From Defluviimonas aquaemixtae (GTDB lineage: Bacteria; Pseudomonadota; Alphaproteobacteria; Rhodobacterales; Rhodobacteraceae), in the NCBI RefSeq assembly GCF_900302475.1, contig NZ_OMOQ01000002.1, forward strand, positions 434,001 to 498,000: a stretch of 64,000 bases of DNA, in the 5' to 3' direction. Under the pieces are notes generated by a model, which was not told the origin of the DNA, searched no databases, and saw only the letters and a list, made by a program, of their open reading frames with translations. Every line of letters starts with the position of its first letter. Position 1 is the first letter of the stretch. The position numbers and the translations under genes are program-made. Below, piece by piece: positions 9,484 to 61,171 of the stretch.

Positions 9484-9498
9484 GGGCTGTGGGCTCCT

Positions 9499-45699: not shown

Positions 45700-45732
45700 G
45701 CGTAAACCTTGACTCCGGCCGCGATGGCCGCG

Positions 45733-45766
45733 AACACGGCCCGGCCAGCGGGCCGCGTTTCATTTC
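45733..45766 (+). terminator. Hairpin between cbtA and cobF
   Basis: AACACGGCCCG (45733-45743), loop GCCAG, CGGGCCGCGTT (45749-45759): 11-bp stem with one mismatch, followed by TCATTTC. It ends only ~10 bp before the cobF start, so it is either a partial terminator after cbtA or a structured leader of cobF. Confidence 0.5.
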
Positions 45767-45776
45767 AGGGTAGCAC

Positions 45777-46529
45777 ATGATCGAACTCGTTCTCGTCGGC
45801 ATCGGAACCGGCAATCCCGACCACCTGACGCGCCAGGCAATCAAAGCGCTGAACGCGGCCGATCTGGTGATGATCCCGCGAAAGGGCCAAAACAAAGCCG
45901 ATCTGGCGGAGCTGCGGCGCGCGATCTGCGCCGAGGTCATAACCAATCCGGCGACACGCCTCGTGGAATTCGACCTGCCCGTGCGTGATCTCGCAACGCC
46001 AGACTACCGGGCGCGCGTGGATGACTGGCACGATGCCATCGCGGCGGTCTGGAAAGAGACTATTCTGGCGGAATTGGGCTCTAAGGGCAGTGCGGCACTT
46101 CTGGTCTGGGGTGATGCGTCGCTCTATGACAGCACGCTCAGGATCGCGGACCGGGTCGCGCGCGTCCTACCGCTGACCGTGCGGGTCATTCCCGGCATCA
46201 CCTCGCTTCAGGCGCTGACGGCGGCACACGCGATGCCGCTGAACGAAATCGGTGCGCCATTCATCGTGACGACCGGCCGGCGATTGCGCGAGGAAGGCTG
46301 GCCGAAGGGCGTGGACACCCTTGCCGTCATGCTCGACGGGGAGTGTTCATTCCAGTCGATCGCGACGGAAGGCGTGACAATCTGGTGGGGCGCCTATGTC
46401 GGGATGGCCGAGGAAATCACGCTGTCCGGGCCTCTCGATAAGACGTCGCAAAGGATCATCGAGACACGAGCCGAGGCGCGCGACCGGCACGGCTGGATCA
46501 TGGACATCTACATTCTGCGCAGGGCCTGA
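45777..46529 (+). CDS. cobF: Precorrin-6A synthase (deacetylating)
   Basis: A 250-residue tetrapyrrole methylase of the CobF branch: LVLVGIGTGNPDHLTRQAIKAL shortened here (loop GIGTGNPDH), VMIPRKGQNKADLAELR, LLVWGDASLYDSTLR, RVIPGITSLQALTAAH, and DGECSFQS near the end. It methylates C1 and removes the acetyl group during ring contraction in the aerobic pathway; CobF has no counterpart in the anaerobic route. It is set apart from the other corrin-ring genes, behind cbtBA and a hairpin. Confidence 0.92.
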   Translation: MIELVLVGIGTGNPDHLTRQAIKALNAADLVMIPRKGQNKADLAELRRAICAEVITNPATRLVEFDLPVRDLATPDYRARVDDWHDAIAAVWKETILAELGSKGSAALLVWGDASLYDSTLRIADRVARVLPLTVRVIPGITSLQALTAAHAMPLNEIGAPFIVTTGRRLREEGWPKGVDTLAVMLDGECSFQSIATEGVTIWWGAYVGMAEEITLSGPLDKTSQRIIETRAEARDRHGWIMDIYILRRA

Positions 46530-46533
46530 GCCG

Positions 46534-47568
46534 TCAAGCGTTGCGGATCGTGTCGCCGAGTTGCAGGACCGGTGTCAGTTCCACGATTTCGCCGCCGATC
46601 AATCCCGATCCCGAGCGCCCGGCGACGATCTGCGCCGCGCGGCGGCCGATCTCGTGACGGCAGGCGTCCATGGTCGCCAGCTTGCGCGGAAGCCCGTCCA
46701 ATAGGTCGACGCCGTTGAACCCCGCAAGCCCAAGCTTGCCGGGCACGTCGATCCCTTTTTCCAGACAGTAGAGCAGCCCGCCTGCCCCGATCATGTCGTT
46801 GGAATAATAAAGGAAATCGAGGTCGGGCGTGCGTGACAGGATTGCCTCCGTCATCTCCCGCCCCTTCAAGAGCGCCGAACCGCCCGAGTAAAACTCCTTG
46901 TCCGCAAGCTCGACGCCGGTTTCGGCGAGCCCCGCCTCGAAACCCTCAAGCCGCTTCCGCGCCCGGTAGTCATGCGGCATCTTCGTGCCGAGAAACCCGA
47001 TCCGGAGATATCCGGCCCGCACGATCGCGCGCGCCATCTCGAGCCCCGCGCGCCTGTGCGAGATGCCGACCACGCTGTCGATCGGCTCACCGTCCACATC
47101 CATGATCTCGACGATCGGGATGCCTGCGTTGCGGAGCATGGCGCTGGCCGCCTCGGTATGCTCCAACCCGGCAACGATAACGCCCGACGGCCGCCATGAC
47201 AGCATCTGGTACAGCACTGCCTCTTCGCGATCGGCCAAGTAGTTTGTGACGCCGAAGACCGGCTGCAGGCCACTGTCCTCGAGTTCTTCCGAGATACCTC
47301 CCAGCACGTCAGGGAAGACGAGGTTCGACAGGGAGGGCACGATCACAGCGACGAGGTTAACGCGCTGCGACGCGAGCGCACCGGCGATCTTGTTGGGCAC
47401 GTAGCCAAGCCGCTTGGCGGCCTCAAGCACGCGCTCGCGCGTCGAATCCGAGACGTCGCCCCGGTTTCGAAGCACGCGGCTGACAGTCATTTCCGATACG
47501 CCGGAGGCTTCGGAGACATCGCGAAGCGTCAATGCGCGGCGGGATTCGGGCTGTCCGCTACGGCTCAC
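46534..47568 (-). CDS. LacI-family transcriptional regulator (GntR-repressor subgroup)
   Basis: A ~344-residue LacI protein. HTH at ~14-35 (TLRDVSEASGVSEMTVSRVL), hinge ending NKIAGALASQR, then a periplasmic-binding-protein-like sensor with VIVPSLSNLVFPDVLGGI shortened here and DMIGAGGLLYCLEKGIDVPGKL. It resembles gluconate-type repressors (GntR of E. coli), but no sugar-acid genes are adjacent, so the regulon is unknown. GTG 47568 is preferred: GGGGAAGACCAA precedes it, and a TTGGAC/16/GCTAAT promoter-like pair overlaps the alternative ATG 47613. Converges on cobF with a 4-bp gap. Confidence 0.82.
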   Translation of the reverse strand: MSRSGQPESRRALTLRDVSEASGVSEMTVSRVLRNRGDVSDSTRERVLEAAKRLGYVPNKIAGALASQRVNLVAVIVPSLSNLVFPDVLGGISEELEDSGLQPVFGVTNYLADREEAVLYQMLSWRPSGVIVAGLEHTEAASAMLRNAGIPIVEIMDVDGEPIDSVVGISHRRAGLEMARAIVRAGYLRIGFLGTKMPHDYRARKRLEGFEAGLAETGVELADKEFYSGGSALLKGREMTEAILSRTPDLDFLYYSNDMIGAGGLLYCLEKGIDVPGKLGLAGFNGVDLLDGLPRKLATMDACRHEIGRRAAQIVAGRSGSGLIGGEIVELTPVLQLGDTIRNA

Positions 47569-47735
47569 TTGGTCTTCCCCGGGGCTGTGGTCTTTCGCCC
47601 TGATTAGCGCCATTGGTCGGGCTTGTCCAAGCAAAGACGCCGGGGTGATTGCGCTGCGGATTGGCGACCGGTAAATCCAATGCGGCGCCCGCGAGGCTTG
47701 CAACCGTAACCGTTTGACGCGAGAACGTCGGCAGC

Positions 47736-47811
47736 GGCCCCGTAGCTCAGGGGATAGAGCAACCGCCTCCTAAGCGGTAGGTCATAGGTTCGAATCCTAT
47801 CGGGGCCGCCA
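47736..47811 (+). tRNA. tRNA-Arg (anticodon CCT)
   Basis: 76 nt including encoded CCA. Acceptor stem GGCCCCG (47736-47742) pairs with CGGGGCC (47801-47807), discriminator G, CCA. D-arm GCTC-AGGGGATA-GAGC, anticodon arm ACCGC-CTCCTAA-GCGGT with anticodon CCT at 47769-47771, T-arm ATAGG-TTCGAAT-CCTAT. Reads the rare codon AGG. No terminator hairpin follows, and a VOC gene starts 57 bp downstream. Confidence 0.97.
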
Positions 47812-47868
47812 GCCGTCCTTTTGTACGCCGCCGGAAAGCTGTTACTCTCGGCCCAAGCGGAGGTGGCC

Positions 47869-48459
47869 ATGCGGAAAATCCAGGCTCAGGGCGTCCATCA
47901 CATCACGCTCGTCGGGGCGGACCGTCAGACATCGATTGATTTCTGGGAGGGACTGTTGGGAATGCCCTTCATTTTCGATCAGCCCAATCTCGATAATCCG
48001 GGCGAGGGACATCTTTACTTCGATCCAGGCGACGGGCGCCTTATCACAATTTTCACGAACGAGGATCGTGTTCCGGACCCTGCGCGCAAACACCCCACGC
48101 CGGGGGACGTCCATCACATCGCCTTCGCGGTCTCGCATGCGAGCTTTGCGCAGGTTGCGCAGCGCCTCGACGACCGCGGCATCGCGCATTCCGGCGCGAA
48201 GGACCGAGGCTTTATGGATTCGATCTATTTCCGCGATCCAATGGGCCTTCTCATCGAGCTCGCCAGCTACCGGTTCGAGCCGCCCAGCGGCCATTCCCAT
48301 GCCGAAGTCTTGCACGAGGCGCACCTGATCCGCACCGCGTGTGGCGACGCGAACATCACCGAGTTGCATCTGGCCGATGCGATCGAAGCGCTGGTCGAGC
48401 GCAGCCAGCGCTCGCTGTCGGAGGACCGCAATCCGAAAGATCCCTATTCGCGAGACTGA
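47869..48459 (+). CDS. VOC (glyoxalase/dioxygenase) family protein
   Basis: A 196-residue vicinal-oxygen-chelate protein with two beta-alpha-beta-beta-beta modules: GVHHITLVGADRQTSIDFWE (8-27) and DVHHIAFAVSHASFAQVAQRL. Candidate metal ligands are the His of each HHI motif and Glu in DPMGLLIELASY. Relatives are annotated as ring-cleaving dioxygenases or glyoxalase-like, but substrate is not predictable. GGAGGTGGCC precedes ATG 47869; an in-frame TTG at 47821 is less likely. It may be co-transcribed with the tRNA. Converges on ppc. Confidence 0.75.
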   Translation: MRKIQAQGVHHITLVGADRQTSIDFWEGLLGMPFIFDQPNLDNPGEGHLYFDPGDGRLITIFTNEDRVPDPARKHPTPGDVHHIAFAVSHASFAQVAQRLDDRGIAHSGAKDRGFMDSIYFRDPMGLLIELASYRFEPPSGHSHAEVLHEAHLIRTACGDANITELHLADAIEALVERSQRSLSEDRNPKDPYSRD

Positions 48460-48472
48460 CCTGCGTTCCGCG

Positions 48473-51142
48473 CTAGCCGGTCCAGCCGAGTCCGGCCGCG
48501 ATGCAGTTCATCGACTGCATCAGCGGGACCGAGATCTTGGCGGTCCGGCCCTCGCGCCGGTTGCGCAAGAGTTCGACCTGCAATCGGTTAATCTGGTCGA
48601 GTTGTCCGCGCACCCGCTCGAACCGGGCGCGCATCTTCGGGAACCGTGCGCCGATTTCGGCGCCCCCGTTTAGGAGCCGGACAGCTTCCGCCGAGCGCCG
48701 GAACTCAGTCTCGATCGCGGCGAAGACGCGCTCGCCCGTCTCTGCGTCTTTCACCAGCGACGCGTAACGCCGCGCAATTCCCATGTCCGACTGGAACAGC
48801 CCCTTTTCGACCTCGTCGACGATGAGTCGGAAGAGCCGGTGCTGCGCCACGATCTCTTCCAGAAGCGCATCGCCCCGCGCGCCGCGGAACCGGCGGAACG
48901 ACTCGATTGCCGAGCCGAAACCGTACCAGCCGGTGATAAGATGTCGGTTCTGCGACCACGCGAAGACCCAAGGGATGGCACGCAGATCGGCCAGGCTTTG
49001 GGCCCCAAACCGCCGTGCGGGCCGCGAGCCCATCTTGAGGAGTGCAAGCTCTTCGACCGGGCTGGCCTGCTGGAAGTAGTCGAGAAAGCCCGGCATGCGC
49101 AGAAGGTTGCCATAGCTCGTCTGGGAAATGCCGGACAACGCCTCGAGCGCATTGTCATGCTCCGGGTTGACCACGATCTCGTCGCGATTCAGCGAGTGGT
49201 CGAGCACCGAAGAGGCCAAAAGCTCCAGATGGTTAACCGCCGTTCCCCGGTTGGCGTAGTTCGACGAGACGACTTCGCCCTGCTCGGTCAGCCTCAGCCG
49301 GCCGTCGATGGTTCCCGCCGGCTGCGCCGAGATCGCCCGGCCCGTCGGCGCTCCGCCGCGACTGACCGATCCGCCGCGGCCATGAAAAAAGACCGGGCTC
49401 ATTCCATGACCCGCGATCGCTCGCGCGATCTTCCGCTGGGCCTTGTGAAGCTCCCAGGTCGAGCAGACGAATCCGCCGTCCTTGTTGCTGTCGGAATAGC
49501 CGACCATCACTTCGAGCTGCCCCGCGAGATTGCCCAGGCTGCGCTTGGCGAGCGGAACCGACAGGAGTTCGTCCAGGATCACCGGCGCCGCCTGCAGATC
49601 ACCAATCGTCTCAAAGAGGGGCACGACCCGCAGGTCGAGCTTCTCGGCCCCGAAACCTGCATAACGCGCAAGCAGGAAGACGCCGAGCAGATCGTCGCTC
49701 GATCTGGTCATCGATAGGACGAAGGGGCCGATCGCCTCCGGGTCCGGACCGCTCTGCGCGGTCTTCATCAGGGCCAACAGGGCAAGGATCTCGCACGTCT
49801 GCTCGCTCAGCGTCGAGAGCTCGGGCACGATCAACTCCGCCCACGCCAGTTCTTGCCGGATACGGGCCGACCATTCGGGGGAGCCGTAGGACGGGACGGG
49901 TTCGCCTCTGGCCTTGCTCCAGATCTCGGCGATGGCCGCGGTCGTGACCGTCGAATTCTGGCGCACGTCGAGTGTGACCGTTCGGAAGCCGAAGACCTTG
50001 GCCTGCCAGCGGATCGGCCGCACGAAGCGTTCCGACAGGCGGTCCGCGCCGATTCCGTTTAGCACCTGTTCGACGCGGAGGAGATCGGTCACGAAATCGT
50101 CGACATGCCGGTACCTCCCGCCGCTTTCTTCGGCTGTGGCGGCGATCCGCAGGCTGATCGCCGTGAGGGCCTGGCGGAACCTTTCTCCGGGGTTGCGTCG
50201 CTTGAGATCGTCGGACTCCTTGGCTGACGACACGATCGCGTCAAGCGTGCCGGATTGCTCCGGGCTTAGTTCAGCGATGGAGGAGCTGATGCTGACCCGG
50301 GCGGCGGCCAACGCGAGCGACTCCTGGTAGCAGGCAAGGATCGCACCGCGTGACCGGCAAAGGGCATCCCGTGTCACTTCAACGTTGACGTTCGGGTTTC
50401 CGTCGCGATCCCCGCCGATCCAGGAATGGAACTTGACGCACGGCCGCGCGGACTCGATTGTGCCGAAGCGCGCCGTCACGGCGGCCTCGAACCGCTCGAA
50501 AAGCTGCGGCACTGCGTCATAGATACTGTCGCGGAAAAACTGCAGGCCCCACTCGATCTCCGCCGTAAGGTCGGGGCGCTCCATCCTGAGTTCACCGGTG
50601 AGCCACAGCAGATCGATCTCGCTTTCGATGTCGCGGAGCAGGTTCTCGGCTTCGCGCGGCGTCCAGCGCTGCGTCTCAAGCGCGACGAGCGCGCGATAGA
50701 TGCGGCGGTGGATTTCGAGAACCGTGGTGCGCTTGGCTTCGGTAGGATGCGCGGTAAGCGTCGGCCCCACCGACAGCCTGTCGGCGAACGCCCGGAACCC
50801 GGCCGCGCTCTGGCCGGGCTCCAATCGTGAGAGGACTTGGGCGAAACTTCCCGCCACCGCGTCGGGACCGGCGCTGGTTTCAAGCTGCCGCCGGCCGCGC
50901 ATCGCGGCGTTTTCTTCGATGATCTTCAGAATCTGGAACCAGATGTTGGCAGCCTGAAGATGCGGGATAGCCGCGTCGCCCGTGGGCAGATCAGCTTCTT
51001 TCGCGTCGAGGAACGCCAGAACCTGCGGCGCGCGCCGGCTGATGACGTTGCGCCACAGGCGCATCAGATCGCGGCGCAACTCGTCGGCGTAGGGCGAATC
51101 CGCCGTCTCGGTGCCGTCGAGTGCCTGAACCGCGAGTCCCAT
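48473..51142 (-). CDS. ppc: Phosphoenolpyruvate carboxylase
   Basis: An 889-residue PEPC. Catalytic motifs: TAHPTEAKRTTVLEIHRRIY (~128-147), the arginine-containing WIGGDRDGNPNV, GYSDSNKDGGF (usual GYSDSGKDAG), and FHGRGGSVSRGGAPTGRAI. The C-terminus reads IAAGLGWTG, where most PEPCs end in NTG with Asn two before the end. It fixes bicarbonate on PEP to give oxaloacetate in the serine cycle. Its start is 4 bp after the hprA stop; a longer frame to 51181 overlaps hprA and is rejected. Last gene of sgaA-mtkA-mtkB-hprA-ppc. Confidence 0.92.
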   Translation of the reverse strand: MGLAVQALDGTETADSPYADELRRDLMRLWRNVISRRAPQVLAFLDAKEADLPTGDAAIPHLQAANIWFQILKIIEENAAMRGRRQLETSAGPDAVAGSFAQVLSRLEPGQSAAGFRAFADRLSVGPTLTAHPTEAKRTTVLEIHRRIYRALVALETQRWTPREAENLLRDIESEIDLLWLTGELRMERPDLTAEIEWGLQFFRDSIYDAVPQLFERFEAAVTARFGTIESARPCVKFHSWIGGDRDGNPNVNVEVTRDALCRSRGAILACYQESLALAAARVSISSSIAELSPEQSGTLDAIVSSAKESDDLKRRNPGERFRQALTAISLRIAATAEESGGRYRHVDDFVTDLLRVEQVLNGIGADRLSERFVRPIRWQAKVFGFRTVTLDVRQNSTVTTAAIAEIWSKARGEPVPSYGSPEWSARIRQELAWAELIVPELSTLSEQTCEILALLALMKTAQSGPDPEAIGPFVLSMTRSSDDLLGVFLLARYAGFGAEKLDLRVVPLFETIGDLQAAPVILDELLSVPLAKRSLGNLAGQLEVMVGYSDSNKDGGFVCSTWELHKAQRKIARAIAGHGMSPVFFHGRGGSVSRGGAPTGRAISAQPAGTIDGRLRLTEQGEVVSSNYANRGTAVNHLELLASSVLDHSLNRDEIVVNPEHDNALEALSGISQTSYGNLLRMPGFLDYFQQASPVEELALLKMGSRPARRFGAQSLADLRAIPWVFAWSQNRHLITGWYGFGSAIESFRRFRGARGDALLEEIVAQHRLFRLIVDEVEKGLFQSDMGIARRYASLVKDAETGERVFAAIETEFRRSAEAVRLLNGGAEIGARFPKMRARFERVRGQLDQINRLQVELLRNRREGRTAKISVPLMQSMNCIAAGLGWTG

Positions 51143-51146
51143 GACC

Positions 51147-52118
51147 TCACGCCACCTTGTCGCGCGGATCGCGCCCCGCAAAGAAGTCCTGCAGATTCTC
51201 GAAGACGCGGAAGCCCATTGCCTCGCGGGTTTCGCGCGTGGCCGATCCGAGATGCGGCAGCATCACCAAGTTATCTGCGCCGAGCAGTTCCGGCGGGATC
51301 GCCGGCTCGCGTTCGAACACGTCGAGACCGGCGCCACCAATCGTGCCGAACCACAGCGCCTGCGCCAGCGCGTATTCATCCACTACCTCGCCGCGCGCGG
51401 TGTTGATCAGGAAGGCCGACGGCTTCATCAGGTCGAGCCGGCGCGCATCGATCAGATGCCGATTGGCGGAACCGCCGGGGCAATGGAGCGAGACGAAATC
51501 GCAGCGCGGAAGCAGGTCTTCGACCGTCGGCACCTGCTCCGCGTCGTAGCGGGCGAGAATTTCCGACGCGACGGCAGACCGGTTCTGGACGAGGATCTTC
51601 ATTCCGAACCCGTGATGGGCGCGCTGCGCCATCGCCTGGCCGATCCGTCCGAAGCCGATGATGCCGAGCGTCGCGCCCGACACCTTGCTGCCGATCAGAT
51701 GCGTCGGCCGCCAGCCGGTCCAGCGCCCCTCGCGCAACTCGCGCTCGCCTTCGCCCGCCCGCCGCGCGGCCATCAGCATCAGCGTCATGGCGATGTCGGC
51801 GGTGCATTCAGACAGGACGTCGGGCGTGTTGGTCACCGCGATGCCGCGCGACTTCGCCGCAGCTGTGTCGATATGGGCGAAGCCTACGCCGTAATTCGCG
51901 AGGATCTTCGTCCGCGCCTCCGGCAGGTCGAAGACCTGCGCCGGAAGCTTGTCCGTCACGGTGGGCAGCACCGCGTCGTAGTTCGCCAAGGCCGCGCGCA
52001 GATCGGCCAGACCCAGGGGCCGGTCGTCGCGATTGAGCGTGAGCTCGAACGCCTCCGCCATCTTGGCCTCGACCGCCTTGGGCCAGGCCCGCGTGACAAG
52101 CACCCTGGGTTTCGCCAT
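51147..52118 (-). CDS. hprA: D-glycerate dehydrogenase / hydroxypyruvate reductase
   Basis: A 323-residue D-2-hydroxyacid dehydrogenase. NAD-binding GIIGFGRIGQAMAQRA (~155), catalytic Arg in NTARGEVVDEYAL, Glu in DVFEREP and His in LPHLGSATRETREA. NADH/NADPH-dependent reduction of hydroxypyruvate to glycerate follows SgaA in the serine cycle. The start follows GAGGGAGGCGAGA; a GTG-side extension of five codons is less likely. Operon position between mtkB and ppc supports the serine-cycle role over a generic 2-ketoacid reductase. Confidence 0.88.
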   Translation of the reverse strand: MAKPRVLVTRAWPKAVEAKMAEAFELTLNRDDRPLGLADLRAALANYDAVLPTVTDKLPAQVFDLPEARTKILANYGVGFAHIDTAAAKSRGIAVTNTPDVLSECTADIAMTLMLMAARRAGEGERELREGRWTGWRPTHLIGSKVSGATLGIIGFGRIGQAMAQRAHHGFGMKILVQNRSAVASEILARYDAEQVPTVEDLLPRCDFVSLHCPGGSANRHLIDARRLDLMKPSAFLINTARGEVVDEYALAQALWFGTIGGAGLDVFEREPAIPPELLGADNLVMLPHLGSATRETREAMGFRVFENLQDFFAGRDPRDKVA

Positions 52119-52129
52119 TCTCGCCTCCC

Positions 52130-53020
52130 TCAAGCGGCTTTCTTCATCACCCGCGCGACGGTCTCGCCGATCGCCGAGGGGTGTTCGGCCACGGTGACGC
52201 CTGCCGCCGACAGGATCTCCACCTTCTCGCTCGCGCTTTCGCCGAAGGCCGAGATGATCGCGCCGGCATGGCCCATCGTGCGGCCCTTGGGCGCGGTCAG
52301 ACCCGCGATGTAGGCGATGACGGGCTTCGTCATGTGGTTCTGGATGAATTCGGCCGCCTCGGCTTCCTGCGGGCCGCCGATCTCGCCGATCATGCAGACG
52401 ACATGGGTGTCGGGATCGGATTCGAACCGCTCGAGGATGTCGCGAAACGAGGACCCGTTGATCGGGTCGCCGCCGATCCCGACCGAGGTCGAGACGCCGA
52501 TGCCGCGATCCTTCAGCTGCTGCGCCGCCTCGTAGCCAAGCGTGCCCGACCGGCCGACGATGCCCACGTTGCCCGGCAGGTAGATGTGGCCCGGCATGAT
52601 GCCGAGAAGCGCCTTGCCCGGGCTGATCGTCCCGGCGCAGTTCGGACCCGTGAGCGCCATCCGGCGGTCCTTCGGATAGCGGAACATGTAGCGCTTCACG
52701 CGGATCATGTCCTGCGCCGGGATGCCGTCGGTCACGCAGACGCAGTAGCGGATGCCGCCGTCGGCCGCTTCCATGATCGAATCCGCGGCGAAGGGCGGCG
52801 GCACGATGACGAGCGACGCATCCGCGCCGGTCGCGGCGACGGCTTCCTTCACCGTGTTGAAGACCGGCACGCCGTGGACGCTCTCGCCAGCCTTACCGGG
52901 CACGACGCCGCCGACGACATTGGTGCCGTATTCGATCATTTCCTTGGTGTGGAACTGCGCGATCCGCCCGGTGATGCCCTGGACGATGACGCGGCTGTTT
53001 CGGTCGAGAAGGATGCTCAT
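52130..53020 (-). CDS. mtkB: Malate-CoA ligase subunit alpha (MtkB)
   Basis: A 296-residue SucD-like subunit: N-terminal SILLDRNSRVIVQGITGRIAQFHTKEM shortened in family alignments to QGITGR, then GPNCAGTISPGKALLGIMPG, VGIVGRSGTLGYEA, GIGGDPINGSSFRDIL, and the phosphohistidine site GHAGAIISAFG. Close in context to MtkB of Methylobacterium, it ligates malate and CoA with ATP to malyl-CoA. The succinate enzyme SucD is the alternative; the serine-cycle neighbours decide. ATG 53020 shares a base with the mtkA stop (TGATG). Confidence 0.87.
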   Translation of the reverse strand: MSILLDRNSRVIVQGITGRIAQFHTKEMIEYGTNVVGGVVPGKAGESVHGVPVFNTVKEAVAATGADASLVIVPPPFAADSIMEAADGGIRYCVCVTDGIPAQDMIRVKRYMFRYPKDRRMALTGPNCAGTISPGKALLGIMPGHIYLPGNVGIVGRSGTLGYEAAQQLKDRGIGVSTSVGIGGDPINGSSFRDILERFESDPDTHVVCMIGEIGGPQEAEAAEFIQNHMTKPVIAYIAGLTAPKGRTMGHAGAIISAFGESASEKVEILSAAGVTVAEHPSAIGETVARVMKKAA

Positions 53021-54216
53021 CAGATCGCCCTCAGCTTGGTGTTCTGCGATTGGTCGTTCTTCCAGGCCGTGACCGACCGTTCCGCCGCCTCCATGAGCGA
53101 GGTGGCGCGGATGATCGGCAGGCCCGACTTGGCGAGGATCTTCTGGCCCTCTTCCACGTTCGTGCCGGCGAGGCGCACTATGACCGGCACGTCCACGGGG
53201 TTCTGGGTCAGCGCCTGGACGACACCTTCGGCGACCCAATCGCAGCGGTTGATGCCGGCGAAGATATTGACGAGCACGGCCTGCACATTCTGGTCCGACA
53301 GCACCAGCTTGAAGGCCTTGGCGACCCGCTCCGGCGTTGCCCCGCCGCCGATGTCGAGGAAGTTCGCGGGCTCCCCTCCTGCAAGCTTGATCGTGTCCAT
53401 CGTCGCCATCGCGAGGCCCGCGCCGTTCACGATGCAGCCGATATTGCCGGTCAGCCCGATATAGTTGAGCCCACGATCGGCGGCGCGGCTTTCGCGCGGG
53501 TCTTCCTGGCTCTTGTCGCGCAGTTCAGCCACATGGGGATGGCGGAAAAGCGCGTTGCCGTCGAACGTCATCTTCGCGTCCAGCGCGAGGATGCGCTCGT
53601 CCGAGGTGATGACGAGCGGGTTGATCTCCACCATGGTCGCGTCGAGCTCGGTGAAGGCGCGGTAGCAGCCGAGAAGCGTGCGCACCATCTGCTGCGTCAG
53701 CGCCGTTGGGATGCCGAGCGCGAAGGCGATCTCGCGCGCCTGGAATTCCTGCAGCCCGACCGCCGGCTCCACCGTGGACCGCACGATCGAGTCCGGCCGC
53801 TCGGCCGAGATGTCCTCGATCTCCATGCCGCCCTCGGAGGATGCGACGATCATCACCCGCTGGCTCGAGCGGTCGAGCACGAAGCCGAGGTAGATCTCGC
53901 GCTCAAAGCTCACCGCGGCCTCGACATAGACGCGGTAGATGCCCTTGCCCTCCGGCCCCGTCTGGTGCGTGACCAGCGTCCGACCGAACATGTCGGCGGC
54001 AGCGTCGAGGATCTCGTGCTCCGAGTCGCATAGCTTCACGCCGCCCGCCTTGCCGCGGCCGCCGGCATGGACCTGGGCCTTGACGATCCAGCGGTTGCCG
54101 CCAAGCTCGCGGGCCCGGTAGGCCGCCTGCTCGGGGCTGTAGGCCAGCGCGCCCTGCGGTACGGTCACGCCGAAGCCCGACAGAATCTCCTTGGCCTGGT
54201 ATTCGTGAATGTCCAT
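53020..54216 (-). CDS. mtkA: Malate-CoA ligase subunit beta (MtkA)
   Basis: A 398-residue SucC-like ATP-grasp subunit: [95 protein letters not shown] (parts), and [17 protein letters not shown]. The [23 protein letters not shown] block and the CDWVAEG motif are close to Methylobacterium MtkA from memory. It forms the malyl-CoA ligase with MtkB. The start has GGCAAGGAGGCTCGG. 20 bp after sgaA. Confidence 0.9.
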
Positions 54217-54236: not shown

Positions 54237-55475
54237 TTATTCCGCCGCGAGAGCGGTCTGGTAGTGCTGATCCAGCGCCGCCTGGACCTTCGAGATATCG
54301 ACTTCCCCGCCGAGGTATTGCATCGCCGCGGCAAAGCGCATGGCGATGTCGGTGATCGCCGGCACCGAAAGCTGGTTGAGGATGCCGATGCGGACCTGCA
54401 CGGGCTCGGACAGCGTCGGCCAGATGCCGAAGCCCTTGGCGCGGCAGTTCTGCACCAGCTCCTTCTCGCGGCCCGCGAGCGCGTCGGGCAGGTTCAAGAC
54501 GACGAGGCTCGTCATGTTCGACGTGACCTTGCAGCCCATCGCGGTCACGGCGGCGCGCAGCGCGGCCTCGTGCATCGCGTAATCCGCGGCGCGCCGGGCG
54601 CGGCCGTGCTGGAGCGTGATCCGAAGCGCCTCGTGGAAGGCGGCGACAGCATAGCCCGAATGGGTGCGGTGGTAGCTGCCGGCGGCCACGTCCTGGCCAT
54701 CGACGATGCCCCAGTGCCGCGCCTCGAGTATCGGATGATGCACGTAGGAATGGCAGCCATTCGACTTGACCTCGGCGATGTAGCGGTCGGTGAAGCTGAC
54801 CGGCGCGTAGGTGAGCGGCAGGCAGAGCACGCCCTTCTGCGGGCAGGACGCCCATCCCACGACGCCGGGATAGTCGTCGATCGAGAAATCCTCGATCCCG
54901 AGGGACGAGACGGCATCGACAAGGCCCATGATGTCGTGGCGTTCGCAGGCGTCGGAGAAGCCTCTGAGGTCGTTGATCCGGCCCGACCCCGTTTCCCAAT
55001 GTGCCATGAACGCCCATTTCGGCTGTTTCGCAGCGAGTGTCTTTTCGATGATCTCGCCTGTCACCGACTGGCCGTGCGGCACGGTGACGATGGTGACCGA
55101 AGCCGGCTGCGGGTCCATCGGGTTGGCCTTCAGTTCCTCCCGCGTCGCGGCCTTCATGCGGATCGTCAGCCCGTCGAGGCCAGAGAAGGTGCCGTTCACG
55201 AACGCGACCACCGTGTCGCCCGGCAGAAGCGCGCCCAGCATACAGTCGAGCCCGGAAAAGCCCGTGCCGCCGACGCCGTAGGTGTAGGTGTTATTCGTGC
55301 CCCAGACTGTTCGCAGCATCTTCTTGCACTCGATCATGCCCCTCAGCACATCGGCCTGCATGTGGTCGGCAAGACCCGACTGCGCAAAGCGTGCCAGAAC
55401 GCGCGCATCGGTGTTGCCCGGGCCGGGGCCGGCGGCCAACGTCTCTGGGATATTAAGTTGCGGGAAGATCGACAT
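54237..55475 (-). CDS. sgaA: Serine-glyoxylate aminotransferase-like class V aminotransferase
   Basis: A 412-residue fold-type I PLP enzyme of the class V alanine/serine-glyoxylate family. [14 protein letters not shown] (~14-27), [16 protein letters not shown] (~66-81), [12 protein letters not shown]-Asp in VDAVSSLG (D187) and PLP-Lys in [10 protein letters not shown] (K214). It transfers the serine amino group to glyoxylate, giving hydroxypyruvate and glycine. It is more diverged from textbook SgaA than its neighbours are from their partners, so amino-donor choice (Ser, Ala or Asp) is not certain. First gene of the serine-cycle operon; GGAGGAATGAC precedes the ATG. Confidence 0.75.
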
Positions 55476-55705
55476 GTCATTCCTCCGTGAGGCCTCGGCG
55501 GGTTCGGCTCTGGGATGTGCCGGTGGAGTCCGGCGGCTAACAGGGATGTTCATATGTCCTCTTGCCGCTACGTCACAACCTGCGTTACTCCTGCCTTTGG
55601 GTATCCAGATGTATTGGAAAAAACCTACCCAATTAGGTGTGAATGCGATAGTATACCAAAAGAGTGCCCACCCATGCGGGTAGGTTCTTGCAAAAGATTG
55701 AATGA
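55476..55705. promoter_or_regulatory. Divergent serine-cycle control region with CCYACCC half-sites
   Basis: 230 bp, AT-richer than its surroundings from ~55600. It holds three copies of a 7-bp element: CCTACCC (55624-55630), CCCACCC (55667-55673) and, reversed, GGGTAGG (55678-55684). The last two form an inverted pair with a 4-bp spacer. The first is also part of ACCTA-N6-TAGGT (55623-55638). AACCTACCC (55622-55630) and GGGTAGGTT (55678-55686) make a 9-bp long-range inverted repeat. These are candidate binding sites for the regulator encoded just downstream. No clear -35/-10 pair identified. Confidence 0.55.
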
Positions 55706-56359
55706 ATGCAGAAGGTTATCGCCGACACCGCCCCGATCGCCGTTTCACTCGCGGACGCCAATCCGCTTGTCCTCTCGGCCATGTCCGAGATCTTCGACCG
55801 CGATCCCCGATTCTCGCTCGTCGCGACGACAGCGACGGCCGAGGGCTTCCTCGGCGCGGTCATGCGGGTGCCGGTCCAGGTCGGAGTGATCGACTGGAAC
55901 CTTCCGGCGCTCGGCGGCCAGAAGCTAATCGAGGTGCTGCGAGAGCAGGCGAACGCGCCGCGCCTCGTCGTCTACGGGGACGATCCGAAGGGCGATCTTC
56001 CGCGCCTCGCCATGCTCGCCGGCGCCGCCGGCTTCGTGTCGCGCACCACGCCGGTCGAAAAGCTTCTCGACACCTGCCTCGCCGTCGCGGCCGGTCAGAT
56101 GGTCTTCCCCTTCCTCGATGTCCGCGAGCTGCAGGCCGATCCGATCCACAGCCTGACCCGGCGCGAACGGGCGCTTCTCGAGGCGCTGGCGACCGGGCTC
56201 ACCAACAAGGATCTCGCCCGCGAATTCGACATCTCGGCCAACACCGTGAAGTTCCACCTGTCGAACCTGTTCGAGAAACTCGGCGTCAAGAACCGGGCCC
56301 AGGCGATCGCGTTCTTCTACTCCTCCCGGCTTCCGGGAGAGGGGAAGCAAGATCGCTGA
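55706..56359 (+). CDS. NarL/LuxR-type response regulator with degenerate receiver
   Basis: A 217-residue protein. An N-terminal receiver-like domain (~10-125) retains the phosphorylatable Asp (IDWNLPALGG, D63) but has Ala18 in place of one acidic-pocket Asp, Tyr90 at the usual Thr/Ser switch and Arg113 at the conserved Lys. The C-terminal GerE/LuxR HTH (~148-210) is intact: SLTRRERALLEALATGLTNK, FDISANTVKFHLSNLFEKLG. No histidine kinase gene is near. It is divergent from sgaA-ppc and 112 bp upstream of mclA, so it is the natural regulator of the serine-cycle genes (inference). The start overlaps no gene and has a weak ribosome site. Confidence 0.8.
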   Translation: MQKVIADTAPIAVSLADANPLVLSAMSEIFDRDPRFSLVATTATAEGFLGAVMRVPVQVGVIDWNLPALGGQKLIEVLREQANAPRLVVYGDDPKGDLPRLAMLAGAAGFVSRTTPVEKLLDTCLAVAAGQMVFPFLDVRELQADPIHSLTRRERALLEALATGLTNKDLAREFDISANTVKFHLSNLFEKLGVKNRAQAIAFFYSSRLPGEGKQDR

Positions 56360-56471
56360 AGGATGTTTCACAGCGTCATTCTGTCGCGCAACATCGTTGC
56401 TTGACAGCGAAGGAAAATTTCGACCTTGAATCGCGCCCGTCACGCTACGGCAACCTCAAAGGACGCATCCC

Positions 56472-57449
56472 ATGAGCTTCCACGTCATCCAACAAGCACC
56501 GGCCAGGCTTAATCGAAGCGAACTCGCCGTTCCCGGCAGCGCTCCCCAAATGTTTGAAAAAGCGGCGAAATCCGATGCCGATGTAATCTTCCTCGACCTC
56601 GAGGACGCGGTCGCTCCGGACGACAAGGCCGAGGCGCGGAAGAACATCATCAAGGCGCTGAACGAGGTCGACTGGGGTACGAAAACGATGTCCGTGCGAA
56701 TCAACGGGCTCGACACACATTACATGTACCGGGACGTCGTGGACGTCGTCGAACAGGCCGGCGAACGTCTCGACCTGATCATGATCCCGAAGGTCGGCAC
56801 CGCCGCCGACGTCTACGCCGTGGACATGCTCGTGACCCAGATCGAGGACGCGAAGGGCTACAAGAAGCGGATCGGCTTCGAGCATATCATAGAAACCGCG
56901 CTCGGGATGCAGAACGTCTCGGACATCGCCGCCGCCTCGAAGCGGAACGAATCGCTTCACTTCGGCGTCGCCGACTATGCCGCCTCGACCCGCGCACGGA
57001 CCACGATCATCGGCGGTGTGAACCCGGATTACGCGGTCCTGACCGACAAACTCGACGACGGCTCGCGCGATGTGCATTGGGGCGATATGTGGCACTACGC
57101 GCTCGCCCGGATGGTCGTCGCGGCGCGCGCCAACGGCCTGCGTCCGATCGATGGCCCGTTCGGCGATTTCTCAGATCCCGATGGCTACAAGGCGGCAGCG
57201 AAGCGCGCCGCGGTGCTCGGCTGCGAGGGCAAATGGGCGATCCACCCGTCGCAGATCGCGCTCGCCAACGAGGTGATGAGCCCCTCCGAGGCCGAGGTGA
57301 CCAAGGCGCAACGCATTCTGAAAGCGATGGAAGAGGCCGCCGCCGAAGGCAAGGGCGCGGTCTCGCTCGACGGCCGCCTCATCGACTATGCTTCGATCCG
57401 CCAAGCCGAAGTGCTGGTCGAAAAGGCGCGCCAGATCGCGGCCGCGTGA
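56472..57449 (+). CDS. mcl: L-malyl-CoA lyase (serine-cycle type)
   Basis: A 325-residue HpcH/HpaI-CitE family lyase: RLNRSELAVPGSAPQMFEKA, ADVIFLDLEDAVAPDDK (Mg-binding Asp/Glu), SVRINGLDTHYMYRD, MIPKVGTAADVYAVD, GFEHIIETALGMQNV, and RPIDGPFGDFSDPDGY. The FGVADYAASTRARTTIIGG segment follows the Methylobacterium MclA/MtkC form (from memory) more than Rhodobacter Mcl1. It cleaves malyl-CoA to acetyl-CoA and glyoxylate; many also act on methylmalyl-CoA. It is followed by glycerate kinase in GTGA overlap. Confidence 0.9.
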   Translation: MSFHVIQQAPARLNRSELAVPGSAPQMFEKAAKSDADVIFLDLEDAVAPDDKAEARKNIIKALNEVDWGTKTMSVRINGLDTHYMYRDVVDVVEQAGERLDLIMIPKVGTAADVYAVDMLVTQIEDAKGYKKRIGFEHIIETALGMQNVSDIAAASKRNESLHFGVADYAASTRARTTIIGGVNPDYAVLTDKLDDGSRDVHWGDMWHYALARMVVAARANGLRPIDGPFGDFSDPDGYKAAAKRAAVLGCEGKWAIHPSQIALANEVMSPSEAEVTKAQRILKAMEEAAAEGKGAVSLDGRLIDYASIRQAEVLVEKARQIAAA

Positions 57450-58711
57450 CCGTGGTCGAGGCGCTTCGCGAACGGGCGAAGGAACTGTTCTCGGCGGCCT
57501 GCACGGCCGCCGATCCCGCGCATGCGCTAAGGGCGGCGTTGGACACGAACCCGCCGCCCCGCCCGGATCCGGGCGGCAGCTATCTTCTTGTTGCCGTTGG
57601 AAAAGCCGCCCTCCCGATGGCCGAGGCGATGCTCGGCCATCTCGGCCAATCCGCCCGCGAAGCGCTTGTGATCACAAACTACGAGAATGCACGTGACCTG
57701 CCCGGCGCGCGCGTGATCGCGGCGGGTCATCCGGTGCCCGACGAGAACGGTGCGCGCGGTGCCGACGAGGTCGCGGCGCTCCTATCCTCGGCGACAGGCG
57801 AGGATCGCGTCATCGCGCTAATCTCGGGCGGTGGGTCGGCTCTCCTGCCAGCTCCGGCCGAAGGGCTGGGGCTGTCCGACAAGGCCGAGGTGAACCGGTT
57901 GCTCCTCGCCCACGGCTTCGAAATCACCGAGATCAACCTCATCCGCCAGCAGCTTTCGCGGCTGAAGGGCGGCGGCATGCTGCGCATTGCCGCGCCCGCC
58001 CCGGTCACCGCCTACATTCTCTCCGACGTCATTGGCGACGATTTACGGGTCATCGCCTCTGGCCCGACCGTCGCCCCGATCGGGACGCGGGCTGAGGCGC
58101 GCGCGCTGCTCGAAAAGCGGGGCGTCTGGTCCCAACTGCCCGCACCCGTCCGCGCCCATCTCGAACGCGCAAGACCCGACGAGCCGCCGTCGCCGCAGGC
58201 CACGAACATCCTGATCGGCTCCAACCGCAAGAGCCTTGAGGCCGTCGCCGAAGCCGCCGCCGGTCTCGCGCCGCAAATTGTCAGCGACCAGCTGACCGGA
58301 GACGTGGCAGATGCCGCCAAGATCGTCACCGACTCCGTGCGCAGTGTGCCGAAGGGACGCGCCGCCTGCCTGATCTTCGGCGGCGAGACGACCGTGACGC
58401 TCAAGGGCGACGGGCTCGGCGGGCGCAACCAGGAACTGGCGCTGCGCGTCTCGCTCTCCATGCCCGATCTCGGCCGCGACTGGGTGTTCCTGTCCGGCGG
58501 CACCGACGGGCGCGACGGTCCGACCGAGGCGGCGGGCGGCTTCGTCGATGCCGGCACCGCAACCCGCATCCGCGCCGCCGGCAAGGACCCGGATGCGCTG
58601 CTGGCCAACAACGACAGCAACGCCGCGCTCGCTGCCGCCGGAGACCTGCTCGTCACCGGCGGCACCGGGACGAACGTCGCCGACGTCCAGATACTCCTGC
58701 TCGGTCCGTAG
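57446..58711 (+). CDS. gck: Glycerate 2-kinase (MOFRL/TtuD family)
   Basis: A 421-residue type II glycerate kinase. N-terminal DUF4147 domain: VAVGKAALPMAEAML, AGHPVPDENGARGADEV, ALISGGGSALLPAPAEGL; C-terminal MOFRL domain with GLGGRNQELAL and SGGTDGRDGPTEAAGGFVD. It phosphorylates glycerate to 2-phosphoglycerate, linking the serine cycle to PEP for Ppc. The start GTG 57446 overlaps the mcl stop (GTGA). Converges on the dehydrogenase gene with a 3-bp gap. Confidence 0.88.
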   Translation: MTVVEALRERAKELFSAACTAADPAHALRAALDTNPPPRPDPGGSYLLVAVGKAALPMAEAMLGHLGQSAREALVITNYENARDLPGARVIAAGHPVPDENGARGADEVAALLSSATGEDRVIALISGGGSALLPAPAEGLGLSDKAEVNRLLLAHGFEITEINLIRQQLSRLKGGGMLRIAAPAPVTAYILSDVIGDDLRVIASGPTVAPIGTRAEARALLEKRGVWSQLPAPVRAHLERARPDEPPSPQATNILIGSNRKSLEAVAEAAAGLAPQIVSDQLTGDVADAAKIVTDSVRSVPKGRAACLIFGGETTVTLKGDGLGGRNQELALRVSLSMPDLGRDWVFLSGGTDGRDGPTEAAGGFVDAGTATRIRAAGKDPDALLANNDSNAALAAAGDLLVTGGTGTNVADVQILLLGP

Positions 58712-58714
58712 CGC

Positions 58715-59956
58715 CTAGCCGAAATCCACCGCGCGGTCGCCCTTGGCATCCTTCACCCGCGTCGGCAGGCCGATGCGATTGAGGAGGTTGATGAATGGTT
58801 TGGGGTCGAGATCCTCGACATTGGCCATCTTCTTGACGTCCCAGTCGCCCTTCGCGATCAGGATCGCCGCGGCGACAGGCGGAACGCCCGCGGTATAGGA
58901 AATGCCCTGAGAGCCAACTTCCTCATACGCCTCCTTGTGGTCGGCGACGTTGTAGATGAAAACTTCCGTCTCCTTGCCGTCCTTCGTGCCCTTCACCAGA
59001 TCACCGATGCAGGTCTTGCCCGAATAGCCGGGCGCCAGCGAGGCCGGGTCGGGCAGCACGGCCTTGACCACTTTCAAAGGCACGACCTCGAGGCCCTCGG
59101 CGGTCGTCACCGGCTGTTCGGACAGCAGGCCGATCGACTTCAAGACCGTGAAGACGTTGATGTAATGATCGCCGAAGCCCATCCAGAACCGCACATCGGC
59201 GTCCTTGTAGCGGTTGGCCAGCGAATGCACTTCGTCATGCCCGCTCATATAGGCCTTCTGCTTGCCGACGACCGGCAGGTCCCATTCGCGGCCCACCTCG
59301 AACATCCTGTTTTCCTTCCACTTGCCGTTCTGCCAGGAATAGACCGTGCCGGTGAATTCGCGGAAATTGATCTCGGGGTCGAAGTTCGTGGCGAAATACT
59401 TGCCGTGCGAACCGGCATTGATGTCGACGATGTCGATCGAGGTCATCTTGTCGAGATACTGGTCCTCGGCCAGCCGCGCATAGGCATTCACCACGCCCGG
59501 ATCGAAACCCACGCCGAGGATCGCGGTGACGCCCGCCTTCTCGCAGGCCTCGCGCTTCTTCCATTCGTAGTTCGCGTACCAGGGCGGGGTTTCGCAGATC
59601 TTGTCCGGCTCCTCGTGGATCGCGGTGTCCATGTAGGCGGTGCCTGTCTCTATACAGGCGTCGAGGACCGACATGTTGACGTAGGGTGTGCCGACATTGA
59701 TCACGATTTCGGCGCCCGTCTTGCGGATGAGGTCGGCAACGGCCTTCGTGTCCATCGCATCGACCGCGTGGGACTTGAACGTGCCGGGCACCTTCATCGA
59801 CTTCTTTTCGTCGACCGAGGCGATGATGTCGTCGCATTTCGACGCGGTGCGGCTCGCAATGTGCAGGTCGCCCAGAATGTCATTGTTCTGGGCACACTTG
59901 TGCGCCACGACCTGCGCGACACCGCCGGCGCCAATGATCAGCACGTTCTTTTTCAC
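58715..59956 (-). CDS. Carboxynorspermidine/carboxyspermidine dehydrogenase (saccharopine dehydrogenase family)
   Basis: A 413-residue saccharopine-dehydrogenase-family enzyme: N-terminal NADPH loop VLIIGAGGVAQVVAHKCAQN, HIASRTASKCDDI, VINVGTPYVNMSVLDAC, VTAILGVGFDPGVVNAYAR, and SYTAGVPPVAAAILIAKG near the end. It condenses a diamine with aspartate semialdehyde and reduces it, giving carboxyspermidine or carboxynorspermidine for the next enzyme. Start is GTG 59956 with AGGAGACAGCC before it. Same strand and 52 bp after the decarboxylase gene. In alphaproteobacteria this route commonly makes spermidine. Confidence 0.87.
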   Translation of the reverse strand: MKKNVLIIGAGGVAQVVAHKCAQNNDILGDLHIASRTASKCDDIIASVDEKKSMKVPGTFKSHAVDAMDTKAVADLIRKTGAEIVINVGTPYVNMSVLDACIETGTAYMDTAIHEEPDKICETPPWYANYEWKKREACEKAGVTAILGVGFDPGVVNAYARLAEDQYLDKMTSIDIVDINAGSHGKYFATNFDPEINFREFTGTVYSWQNGKWKENRMFEVGREWDLPVVGKQKAYMSGHDEVHSLANRYKDADVRFWMGFGDHYINVFTVLKSIGLLSEQPVTTAEGLEVVPLKVVKAVLPDPASLAPGYSGKTCIGDLVKGTKDGKETEVFIYNVADHKEAYEEVGSQGISYTAGVPPVAAAILIAKGDWDVKKMANVEDLDPKPFINLLNRIGLPTRVKDAKGDRAVDFG

Positions 59957-60008
59957 TTCGGCTGTCTCCTATTTTGAGGGGCCAGTGGAAGGGGCGAGCG
60001 TAACACGC

Positions 60009-61106
60009 TCACGACAGGCTCGAGGCGTAGTCCTCAAAGCCAAACTCGCGGACAAGTCGGATGGACCCGTCGAGTTCCCTTATGGCGATCGACGGCATGT
60101 TTACGCCGTTGAACCAGTTCTTCTTGACCATCGTGTAGCCGGCTGCGTCCTGGACAGAGATCCGGTCGCCGATATTCAGGCGCTCGGGGAACCGGAACTC
60201 GCCGAAGATGTCCCCGGCCAGGCAGGACTTGCCGCAGACCATGTATTCGTGCTCGCCCTCATCCGGCGCGATCTTGGCATTCTCGCGGTAGATCAACAGG
60301 TCAAGCATATGCGCTTCGATGGACGAATCCACGATGGCGAGGTCCTTGCCATTGTTCAGAAGGTCGAGAACCGTGACCTCCAGCGTCGTCGAATTGGTGA
60401 TCGCCGCCTCGCCGGGTTCGAGATAGACCTGTACGCCGAATTTCTCGCCGAAGGCTTTCAACCGCCGGGCCAGCCGGTCGACCGGATACCCCTCGCCCGT
60501 GAAGTGGATACCGCCGCCGAGGCTGACCCATTTCACTTTTTCCAAGAGATCGCCGAACTCGGCCTCGATCCGGCCAAGCTGGTGGTCGAAGAGGTCGAAA
60601 TCTGCGTTCTCGCAATTGTAGTGGATCATGAAGCCCGAAATTCGGTCGATGACTTCGAGGATCTTCACCGCATCCCATTCGCCGAGGCGGCTGAACGGCC
60701 GAGCCGGGTCGGCAAGGTCGAATCCGGAGGTCGAGAAGCGCGGATTCAGGCGCAGCCCGCGTTCGATATGCGCGGCGCGGTTACCGAAACGCTCCAGCTG
60801 GCCGATCGAGTTGAAGATGATCTTGTCGGCGTACCCCACCGCTTCCTCGATCTCGTGATCCGCCCAGGCGACAGAATAGGCGTGGGTCTCCTTGCCGAAC
60901 TTCTCTCGTCCGAGGCGGAGCTCGTAGAGCGACGACGAAGTCGTGCCGTCCATATGCTCGCGCATCAGGTCGAAGGCCGACCAGGTCGCGAAGCACTTGA
61001 GCGCCAGCAGGGCTTTCGCTCCGGAACCGTCGCGCAACCGGTCGATGATCTCCATGTTGCGAAGAAGCTTCGCCTTGTCGATCAGATAGAAGGGTGTCTG
61101 GATCAT
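60009..61106 (-). CDS. nspC: Carboxynorspermidine/carboxyspermidine decarboxylase
   Basis: A 365-residue fold-type III PLP decarboxylase (alanine racemase-like barrel). PLP Lys37 is in LLALKCFATWS; later NPRFSTSGFDLADP, YNCENADFD, VSLGGGIHFTGEGYPVDRL (glycine loop for phosphate), EPGEAAITNSTTLEV and VCGKSCLAGDIFGEF with a catalytic Cys. It decarboxylates carboxy(nor)spermidine to the polyamine. ATG 61106 follows TTGGGGGGCGCG; a 20-residue extension is not family-like. Operon with the dehydrogenase. Confidence 0.9.
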   Translation of the reverse strand: MIQTPFYLIDKAKLLRNMEIIDRLRDGSGAKALLALKCFATWSAFDLMREHMDGTTSSSLYELRLGREKFGKETHAYSVAWADHEIEEAVGYADKIIFNSIGQLERFGNRAAHIERGLRLNPRFSTSGFDLADPARPFSRLGEWDAVKILEVIDRISGFMIHYNCENADFDLFDHQLGRIEAEFGDLLEKVKWVSLGGGIHFTGEGYPVDRLARRLKAFGEKFGVQVYLEPGEAAITNSTTLEVTVLDLLNNGKDLAIVDSSIEAHMLDLLIYRENAKIAPDEGEHEYMVCGKSCLAGDIFGEFRFPERLNIGDRISVQDAAGYTMVKKNWFNGVNMPSIAIRELDGSIRLVREFGFEDYASSLS

Positions 61107-61171
61107 CGCGCCCCCCAACCGGCCAAAGGGAAGGGCCGGTATAAGAGCCGTGGCCCCCCGGCGCAAGCGGT

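Follow-up and report, generated by a model that had tools for sequence, protein, structure and literature searches.

The window (the entire stretch of 64,000 nucleotides of Defluviimonas aquaemixtae DNA that was analysed) contains a serine-cycle gene cluster in which an sgaA-mtkA-mtkB-hprA-ppc operon is divergent from the gene of a 217-amino-acid regulator, with mcl and gck located 3' of the regulator gene (Table 1). This cluster is adjoined by genes for carboxynorspermidine synthase and decarboxylase (window positions 58715-61166; the match to NF043000 is below the cut-off and that to TIGR01047 above it), and, at the other end, a LacI/GntR-type regulator gene and a glyoxalase-superfamily gene lie next to ppc (46534-48459), with the genes for the cobalt transporter CbtA and the precorrin-6A synthase CobF at 44980-46529.

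Table 1. Genes, codons and predicted regulatory sites of the serine-cycle locus, in window coordinates
Feature	Position	Strand	Remarks
ppc, PEP carboxylase	48473..51181	-	start not fixed
hprA-type 2-hydroxyacid dehydrogenase	51147..52133	-	
mtkB, malate/succinate--CoA ligase alpha	52130..53020	-	
mtkA, malate--CoA ligase beta	53020..54216	-	NF010647, 713.8 bits against a cut-off of 604
Class-V aminotransferase, probably serine-glyoxylate aminotransferase (sgaA)	54237..55475	-	product from context; start set by upstream Shine-Dalgarno-like GGAGGAA
Divergent promoter region, sgaA-regulator, 230 bp	55476..55705		
Third TGGGTA half-site, within conserved TTTGGGTATC block	55598..55603	+	
Second, imperfect copy CCTACCCAATTAGG	55624..55637		
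Predicted operator CCACCCATGCGGGTAG	55668..55683		sole perfect CYACCCNNNNGGGTRG in host genome
Atypical NarL-type regulator	55706..56359	+	pseudo-receiver ~11-131, linker with FPF motif 134-136, LuxR HTH 148-203
Codons for D17 (DD1 retained) and A18 (DD2 lost)	55754..55759	+	NarL alignment, homologs
Codons of D63 and W64	55892..55897	+	homolog counts; natural D63G in L121
Codons for Y90 (T-1), G91 (actual position of the switch Ser/Thr) and D92 (T+1)	55973..55981	+	NarL alignment, model
Codon for R113, which replaces the conserved Lys	56042..56044	+	NarL alignment
LuxR-type HTH, residues 148-203	56147..56314	+	Pfam domain match
mcl, malyl-CoA lyase-type CitE/HpcH protein	56472..57449	+	named by context; NCBIfam matches below cut-offs
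gck, glycerate 2-kinase type (DUF4147/MOFRL)	57450..58711	+	start approximate

The regulator combines a Response_reg domain (PF00072; E 4.5e-8, 33.7 bits against a cut-off of 30.2) with a GerE/LuxR HTH domain (PF00196; E 7.5e-21, 74 bits against a cut-off of 23.5), and this arrangement, a receiver followed by the LuxR/GerE HTH, which is recovered by the Pfam and the fold matches alike (the VIA fold re-examination spanned mainly residues 9-142), places the protein in the NarL/FixJ family. Apart from these two models, its Pfam matches include only weak sigma/HTH models and no LysR model, so the protein is not of the QscR/CbbR type. Of the proteins with solved structures, NarL gives the best sequence match (1a04; E 3.9e-20 in the HMMER search); the structure model of the regulator has a pLDDT of 84.9 and a pTM of 0.60.

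When examining the HMMER alignment of the regulator with NarL 1a04, we observed that D17 and A18 occupy the positions of the acidic pair, D63 that of the phospho-acceptor, G91 that of the switch Ser/Thr and R113 that of the conserved Lys, and that NarL possesses the residues that are missing from the regulator at the second acidic (DD2), switch (T) and Lys (K) positions. An earlier note on this DNA had held that the phospho-acceptor D63 is kept and that A18 and R113 are changed, which the alignment bears out. It had also held that the switch Thr is changed, and the loss is genuine, but the residue that it named, Y90, lies one position too early: the segment RLVVYG of the regulator is opposite RIVVFS of NarL, so that the Thr column is G91, and G91 is the final residue of strand beta4 (86-91) in the model, which makes Y90 the T-1 residue. 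In the model, the strands end at residues 16, 63, 91 and 112, which is where the pocket positions would place them.

Across 81 aligned members (80 loci and the window's own), position 18 is S in 44, G in 24 and A in 9, and position 91 is G in 44, A in 32 and S in 5, so that Ser is kept at the switch in 5/81, whereas D63, W64 and Y90 are found in all 81, R113 in 80 and D17 in 75. Among the 120 listed of the 3244 homologs found, D17 is present in 117, D63 in 118 (with one E and one N), W64 in 120, Y90 in 119 and R113 in 119, and a natural D63G form occurs outside both of these sets, in the serine-cycle locus L121 of genome G376. The T+1 residue (position 92) is D in 47, E in 23, H in 8, N in 2 and Q in 1 of the 81 aligned members, and never Ala or Gly; the excerpted text of a 2025 review (PMC12632262) describes T+1 as generally small, keeping the phosphorylation site accessible. 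The regulator thus departs from a canonical phosphorylatable receiver (DD, D, T/S, K), with A18, G91 and R113 at DD2, T and K, respectively. With three of the five residues missing, it is a pseudo-receiver in the sense of the same excerpt, which applies the term to a receiver without any one of the five; it is not an aspartate-less receiver (ALR) as defined in the excerpted PMC4395418, given the presence of D63. The review excerpt adds that phosphorylation may partly survive changes of DD, T or K, and it describes ligands bound in the alpha1-beta2-alpha2 and beta3-alpha3 regions of pseudo-receivers.

The possibility that the gene is a decaying pseudogene was ruled out by the mean column identity in the 81 aligned loci, which is 0.78 for the receiver and 0.80 for the HTH, with 0.88 reached in residues 33-57 of the receiver. 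Such similar conservation of the two domains suggests a receiver function beyond dimerisation.

The HATPase_c model has 28 matches in the genome of the host, which is 99.94% complete at 4.24 Mb; 26 of them are over the cut-off, and none of the 28 lies within 150 kb of the regulator gene, the nearest on the same contig ending 151.6 kb away. By this model, the regulator is an orphan, with no adjacent histidine kinase gene, as had been stated earlier.

The locus set comprised the best 80 of 152 relatives, most of them from Rhodobacterales, plus a small number of Rhodospirillales-type and Hyphomicrobiales members. In 77/80 loci, and likewise in the window, mtkA is found in divergent orientation no more than 3 kb from the regulator, which assigns the window's regulator to the serine-cycle clade; in the three remaining loci, the regulator is at most 1.6 kb from the contig start and the locus is cut by the contig end. 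A divergent sgaA match is located within 500 bp of the regulator in 67/80 loci and mcl is directly 3' of it in 72/80, the eight others being one contig edge and loci in which mcl is elsewhere or unmatched, so the divergent operon is the steady partner and control of mcl is less certain. The word CTTGACA precedes mcl in 45/73 loci, and this conservation suggests that mcl has a promoter of its own.

Among 198 genomes of the host family, 20 carry a strong regulator match (E < 1e-100) and one a weaker, D-less match; mtkA accompanies the strong match in all 20 (over the cut-off in 19, with the 20th, L121, at a contig end). As a marker of the system, mtkA alone was rejected, given that 23 of the 42 mtkA-positive genomes of this family have no serine-clade regulator; in six of these 23, no match to the sgaA, hprA or ppc of the window was found near mtkA. 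Rhodobacteraceae genomes with mtkAB, without the serine-clade regulator and with no hprA or ppc match nearby are exemplified by L117-L120, L123 and L126; by eye, a class-V aminotransferase adjoins the mtkA module in L120, which also has a divergent relative without Trp at position 64. An exception to tight linkage is genome G373, with a second sgaA-mtkAB-ppc copy (L125) that has no regulator match in 14 kb. At another serine-cycle cluster (L104, positions 7959-10544, genome G211), a LysR-type gene, recognised by eye, lies upstream of the sgaA-like gene and in the same orientation, and the 16 kb examined showed no member of the regulator's pseudo-receiver family; here the type of regulator may have been swapped at the same pathway.

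The divergent promoter region contains a palindrome, CYACCC-N4-GGGTRG, that we predict to be the operator and that lies 22 bp upstream of the regulator start codon. The word CTACCCA/TGGGTAG occurs in 58/68 divergent promoters, and 66 dereplicated promoters (14.7 kb) contain 134 TACCCA/TGGGTA words compared to 11.4 in dinucleotide shuffles; in 60 mcl upstream regions (6.8 kb), there are 5 such words. Unsupervised 7-mer counts at 47 loci of a sister clade, described below, ranked CCTACCC/GGGTAGG second (tied) upstream (17) and third downstream (15). In the dereplicated sister loci, the CCTACCC word was detected in 24/45 (shuffle mean 2.5, largest 7); at sister loci its density is 1.97 per kb in the flanks versus 0.06 per kb elsewhere. 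It was not found in L100, L122 and L113. The palindrome consensus was drawn after viewing both clades; the CCTACCC word alone was defined in one clade and then applied to the other.

A scan for the palindrome covered 171 of 212 loci (2.18 Mb; 25 pattern-fetched host loci and 16 duplicates were dropped) and yielded 32 perfect copies, 31 of them with their centre no more than 100 bp from a family-protein match; the 32nd, in L187, is 1.2 kb from the family match, in front of an FBPase start. With at most one mismatch, there are 94 palindromes in the 85 kb near the genes (1-300 bp) versus 10 in the 1.80 Mb elsewhere, and 78 of the 143 family loci have a palindrome at this stringency, compared to 32 with a perfect one. 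The perfect sites are located 5' of the regulator at serine-cycle loci (24) and 3' of the regulator at sister loci (8), a pattern that common descent of one promoter fails to explain; loci within a clade are related and genomes may repeat, so these site counts are not independent. A one-mismatch palindrome precedes sgaA in L125, the serine-cycle copy without an adjacent regulator. Two two-mismatch palindromes precede ppc in L112 and were not counted as evidence.

Within the host genome, CYACCCNNNNGGGTRG is found at 22 places (one perfect, 21 with one mismatch) versus 53 for the reversed control. With the control being the commoner at one mismatch, the weight of the motif comes from its placement rather than its uniqueness, one perfect palindrome per genome might be no more than chance, and we claim no further targets. 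A genome-wide regulon based on CTACCCANNNNNGGT with one mismatch was rejected, with 67 matches compared to 213 for the reversed-pattern control and with the spacing of CTACCCANNNNNGGT misfitting the second site of the window. A scan of positions 55440-56500 found no sigma-70 promoter, so the sign of control is not readable from promoter geometry.

A scan across the class (289 genomes) recovered the host and seven genomes with 44-50% identical proteins, all seven with G63. The D-less sister clade shows 44-54% identity to the regulator, and in the 120 listed of the 1501 relatives found, D63 is absent throughout: G63, K18, W64 and Y90 are each found in 120, T91 in 115 and K113 in 116. The FPF motif is present in this clade as well, and F36, F48, I62, P85, Y90, R100, M132, F134 and D138 are conserved in both the serine and the sister clades and present in no more than 2 of 10 canonical outgroups. 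The set of sister loci consists of the 7 class-sampled ones, the 30 best of 90 matches and 12 new ones, and G precedes the Trp in 49/49. Six of the seven class-sampled sisters adjoin FBPase II, PRK, transketolase, PPi-PFK, GAPDH, PGK or aldolase genes (GAPDH only in L103), and the seventh adjoins an sgaA-like gene; the genes around these seven were named by sequence reading and tblastn between the loci, not by a family scan. At least one Calvin-type gene match lies within ~1.5 kb on either side at 31/49 sister loci; the remaining 18 include early contig ends, and inspection by eye shows an FBPase start in L187 and sgaA-like genes in L144 and L185. In one order, sister-profile matches were found in 89/199 genomes. 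In many alphaproteobacteria, as in L097 (6116-11680), L098, L099, L101, L102 and L103, an aspartate-less REC-LuxR protein (G63, K18, W64) is thus encoded beside FBPase-PRK-transketolase-type operons.

Judging from this gene context, the sister clade looks like a Calvin-cycle or gluconeogenic regulator that is unnamed in the literature searched; neither this clade nor the regulator itself is named in titles or abstract openings of the open-licence PMC text, a weak negative given that scope. The link to the serine cycle, the only one that had been noted from the window, stands, and the family is found at Calvin-cycle-type loci as well.

A further clade, from Hyphomicrobiales (Aminobacter, Mesorhizobium and kin), was sampled as 120 listed of 1132 proteins found plus two plasmid proteins, and lacks Asp63 in 122/122 (G 115, A 4, T 2, S 1), with R18 in 121/122, Q113 in 122/122 and W64 in 122/122. 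Two of ten plasmid matches were examined, both from Aminobacter plasmids (L112, 9004-9651, and L113, 6959-7597); the clade member adjoins ppc-glyA in one of these loci and formate--THF ligase with folD in the other, and the clade is a candidate C1 regulator. With W64 present in 362/362 listed proteins of the three clades and D63 missing from two of them, it is W64, not D63, that the three have in common.

Phylogenetic analysis with ten canonical outgroups, from which five trait columns were removed and L122 and L100 were left out as long branches, showed that the serine-cycle sequences comprise a single clade (100/100) nested among the D-less ones; in a first tree, with L122 and L100 included, they again formed one nested clade. 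Constraining all D-less sequences to form one clade changed the likelihood by -7.98 (p-AU 0.045), with outgroup branches that are long and were flagged by the tool. At this p value, a regain of Asp63 from Gly in the serine-cycle clade is marginally favoured and not firm.

The earlier view of a NarL-type regulator that is tied to the serine cycle, is a kinase orphan and has a non-canonical receiver, unlike the LysR-type QscR (as characterised in the excerpted PMC2680597), agrees with these observations and is strengthened by the two clades without Asp63, the natural D63G form and the predicted operator. We propose, with a probability of about 0.7, that the regulator is an atypical pseudo-receiver NarL/FixJ factor that works free of a kinase, binds the palindrome and controls the sgaA-mtkA-mtkB-hprA-ppc operon together with its own gene. 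A dimer of the regulator, presumably formed without phosphate, would bind CYACCC-N4-GGGTRG in the shared promoter region and control the divergent operon and itself, most likely by activation of the operon along with autoregulation, and, as a guess, a small metabolite or redox input would act on the receiver. Kinase-independent control by this pseudo-receiver family, which is undescribed in the open-licence PMC literature searched, appears to be well supported by the comparison of sequences and loci, and metabolite sensing is plausible. The location of the D-less sister clade at Calvin-cycle or gluconeogenic loci makes a C3 or C2 signal common to both pathways the best candidate input; that a carbon signal of this kind, shared by the Calvin and serine cycles, is the actual input is a guess.

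The persistence of D63 in 118/120 listed homologs and 81/81 loci implies that this residue matters for something, and it is an argument, along with the retained DD1, the Ser at the switch in 5/81, the 28 HATPase_c matches in the host genome and the reduced phosphorylation that the excerpt of PMC12632262 allows for such proteins, for regarding the regulator as a weak but genuine response regulator whose D63 receives phosphate inefficiently, from a distant kinase or from acetyl phosphate, with activity still under this control. We consider this quite improbable in view of the joint loss of DD2, T and K, the D, E, H, N or Q at T+1 in 81/81 members, the natural D63E, N and G forms, the absence of D from all listed proteins of two clades and the lack of a HATPase_c match within 150 kb. 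A better case, although still an unlikely one, can be made for a ligand-free, constitutive DNA-binding dimer whose output is set by its own amount via autoregulation at 55668-55683, with the carbon signal acting on its synthesis: the predicted operator, 22 bp upstream of the regulator's own start codon, is where such a loop would have it, but the identity in the receiver, 0.78 versus 0.80 in the HTH and 0.88 at residues 33-57, exceeds what is expected of a plain dimerisation module.

Control might also be exerted by a partner protein, in a heterodimer like that of BldM with WhiI, for which the excerpt of PMC12632262 provides the precedent, or by a redox switch at Cys124. This residue, which is Cys in 74/81 loci and 119/120 listed homologs, lies in alpha5, part of the alpha1-alpha5 interface that the same excerpt gives for NarL/FixJ dimers; it is absent, however, in six basal members outside Rhodobacterales (L075, L078, L082, L083, L085 and L087), and we regard such control as improbable. 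That the palindrome belongs to another, global regulator, with the pseudo-receiver acting elsewhere, seems very unlikely: 31 of 32 perfect copies are within 100 bp of a family gene even though the neighbours and the side (24 5', 8 3') differ by clade, and there is a single perfect copy in the entire host genome. The kinase-free pseudo-receiver factor proposed above is the reading that we prefer.

BldM and WhiI of Streptomyces are, presumably, REC-LuxR proteins. They resemble the regulator in being orphan atypical response regulators, of which BldM is phosphorylation-independent, and differ from it in being developmental regulators, with no link to carbon assimilation reported in the excerpted text (PMC12632262). 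In JadR1 and RedZ, pseudo-receiver regulators described in the same source, the end product of the controlled pathway inhibits DNA binding; these serve antibiotic pathways, whereas the regulator sits at serine-cycle genes. From the canonical NarL/LiaR/DesR/VraR group, the regulator is set apart by the loss of the DD2, T and K residues that NarL keeps. A further comparison is with QscR of Methylobacterium extorquens, which likewise controls serine-cycle genes but is a LysR-type protein rather than a REC-LuxR one, and whose gene is located away from the known serine-cycle genes, whereas the regulator is encoded within the cluster. QscR and CbbR, the regulator of the Calvin cycle, are homologs (PMC2680597, in excerpt), a kinship that is paralleled by that of the regulator to regulators at Calvin-cycle-type loci. 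Formyl-H4F strengthens the binding of QscR to DNA, and NADP+ and acetyl-CoA are among the compounds that weaken it (PMC3486813, in excerpt).

Tentatively, and with the odds running against it, one might go further and see here a third class of carbon-assimilation regulators, with no relation to the LysR-type CbbR and QscR, in which a phosphorylation pocket rebuilt around the invariant W64 and the aromatic Tyr/Phe90 reads a carbon metabolite directly; such regulators would have served Calvin loci first and then, in a single recruitment, the serine cycle in Rhodobacterales and their kin, where Gly63 would have reverted to Asp in a role unconnected with phosphorylation. If this were true, two superfamilies would have converged on the same Calvin-to-serine-cycle pairing.

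The excerpted 2009 comparison of methylotroph genomes mentions probable regulators of unknown function near serine-cycle genes and notes that the serine-cycle cluster of Silicibacter pomeroyi suggests an independent lineage (PMC2680597); a Ruegeria pomeroyi strain is one of the 80 loci analysed here (L076). For the S. pomeroyi-type cluster, this provides a candidate regulator, together with a signature of its family and an exactly defined predicted operator. The review excerpt (PMC12632262) speaks of a mystery as to how bacterial pseudo-receivers are activated, and the clades with and without the aspartate, which are found on comparable metabolic operons and share one operator word, make a clean system for this question.
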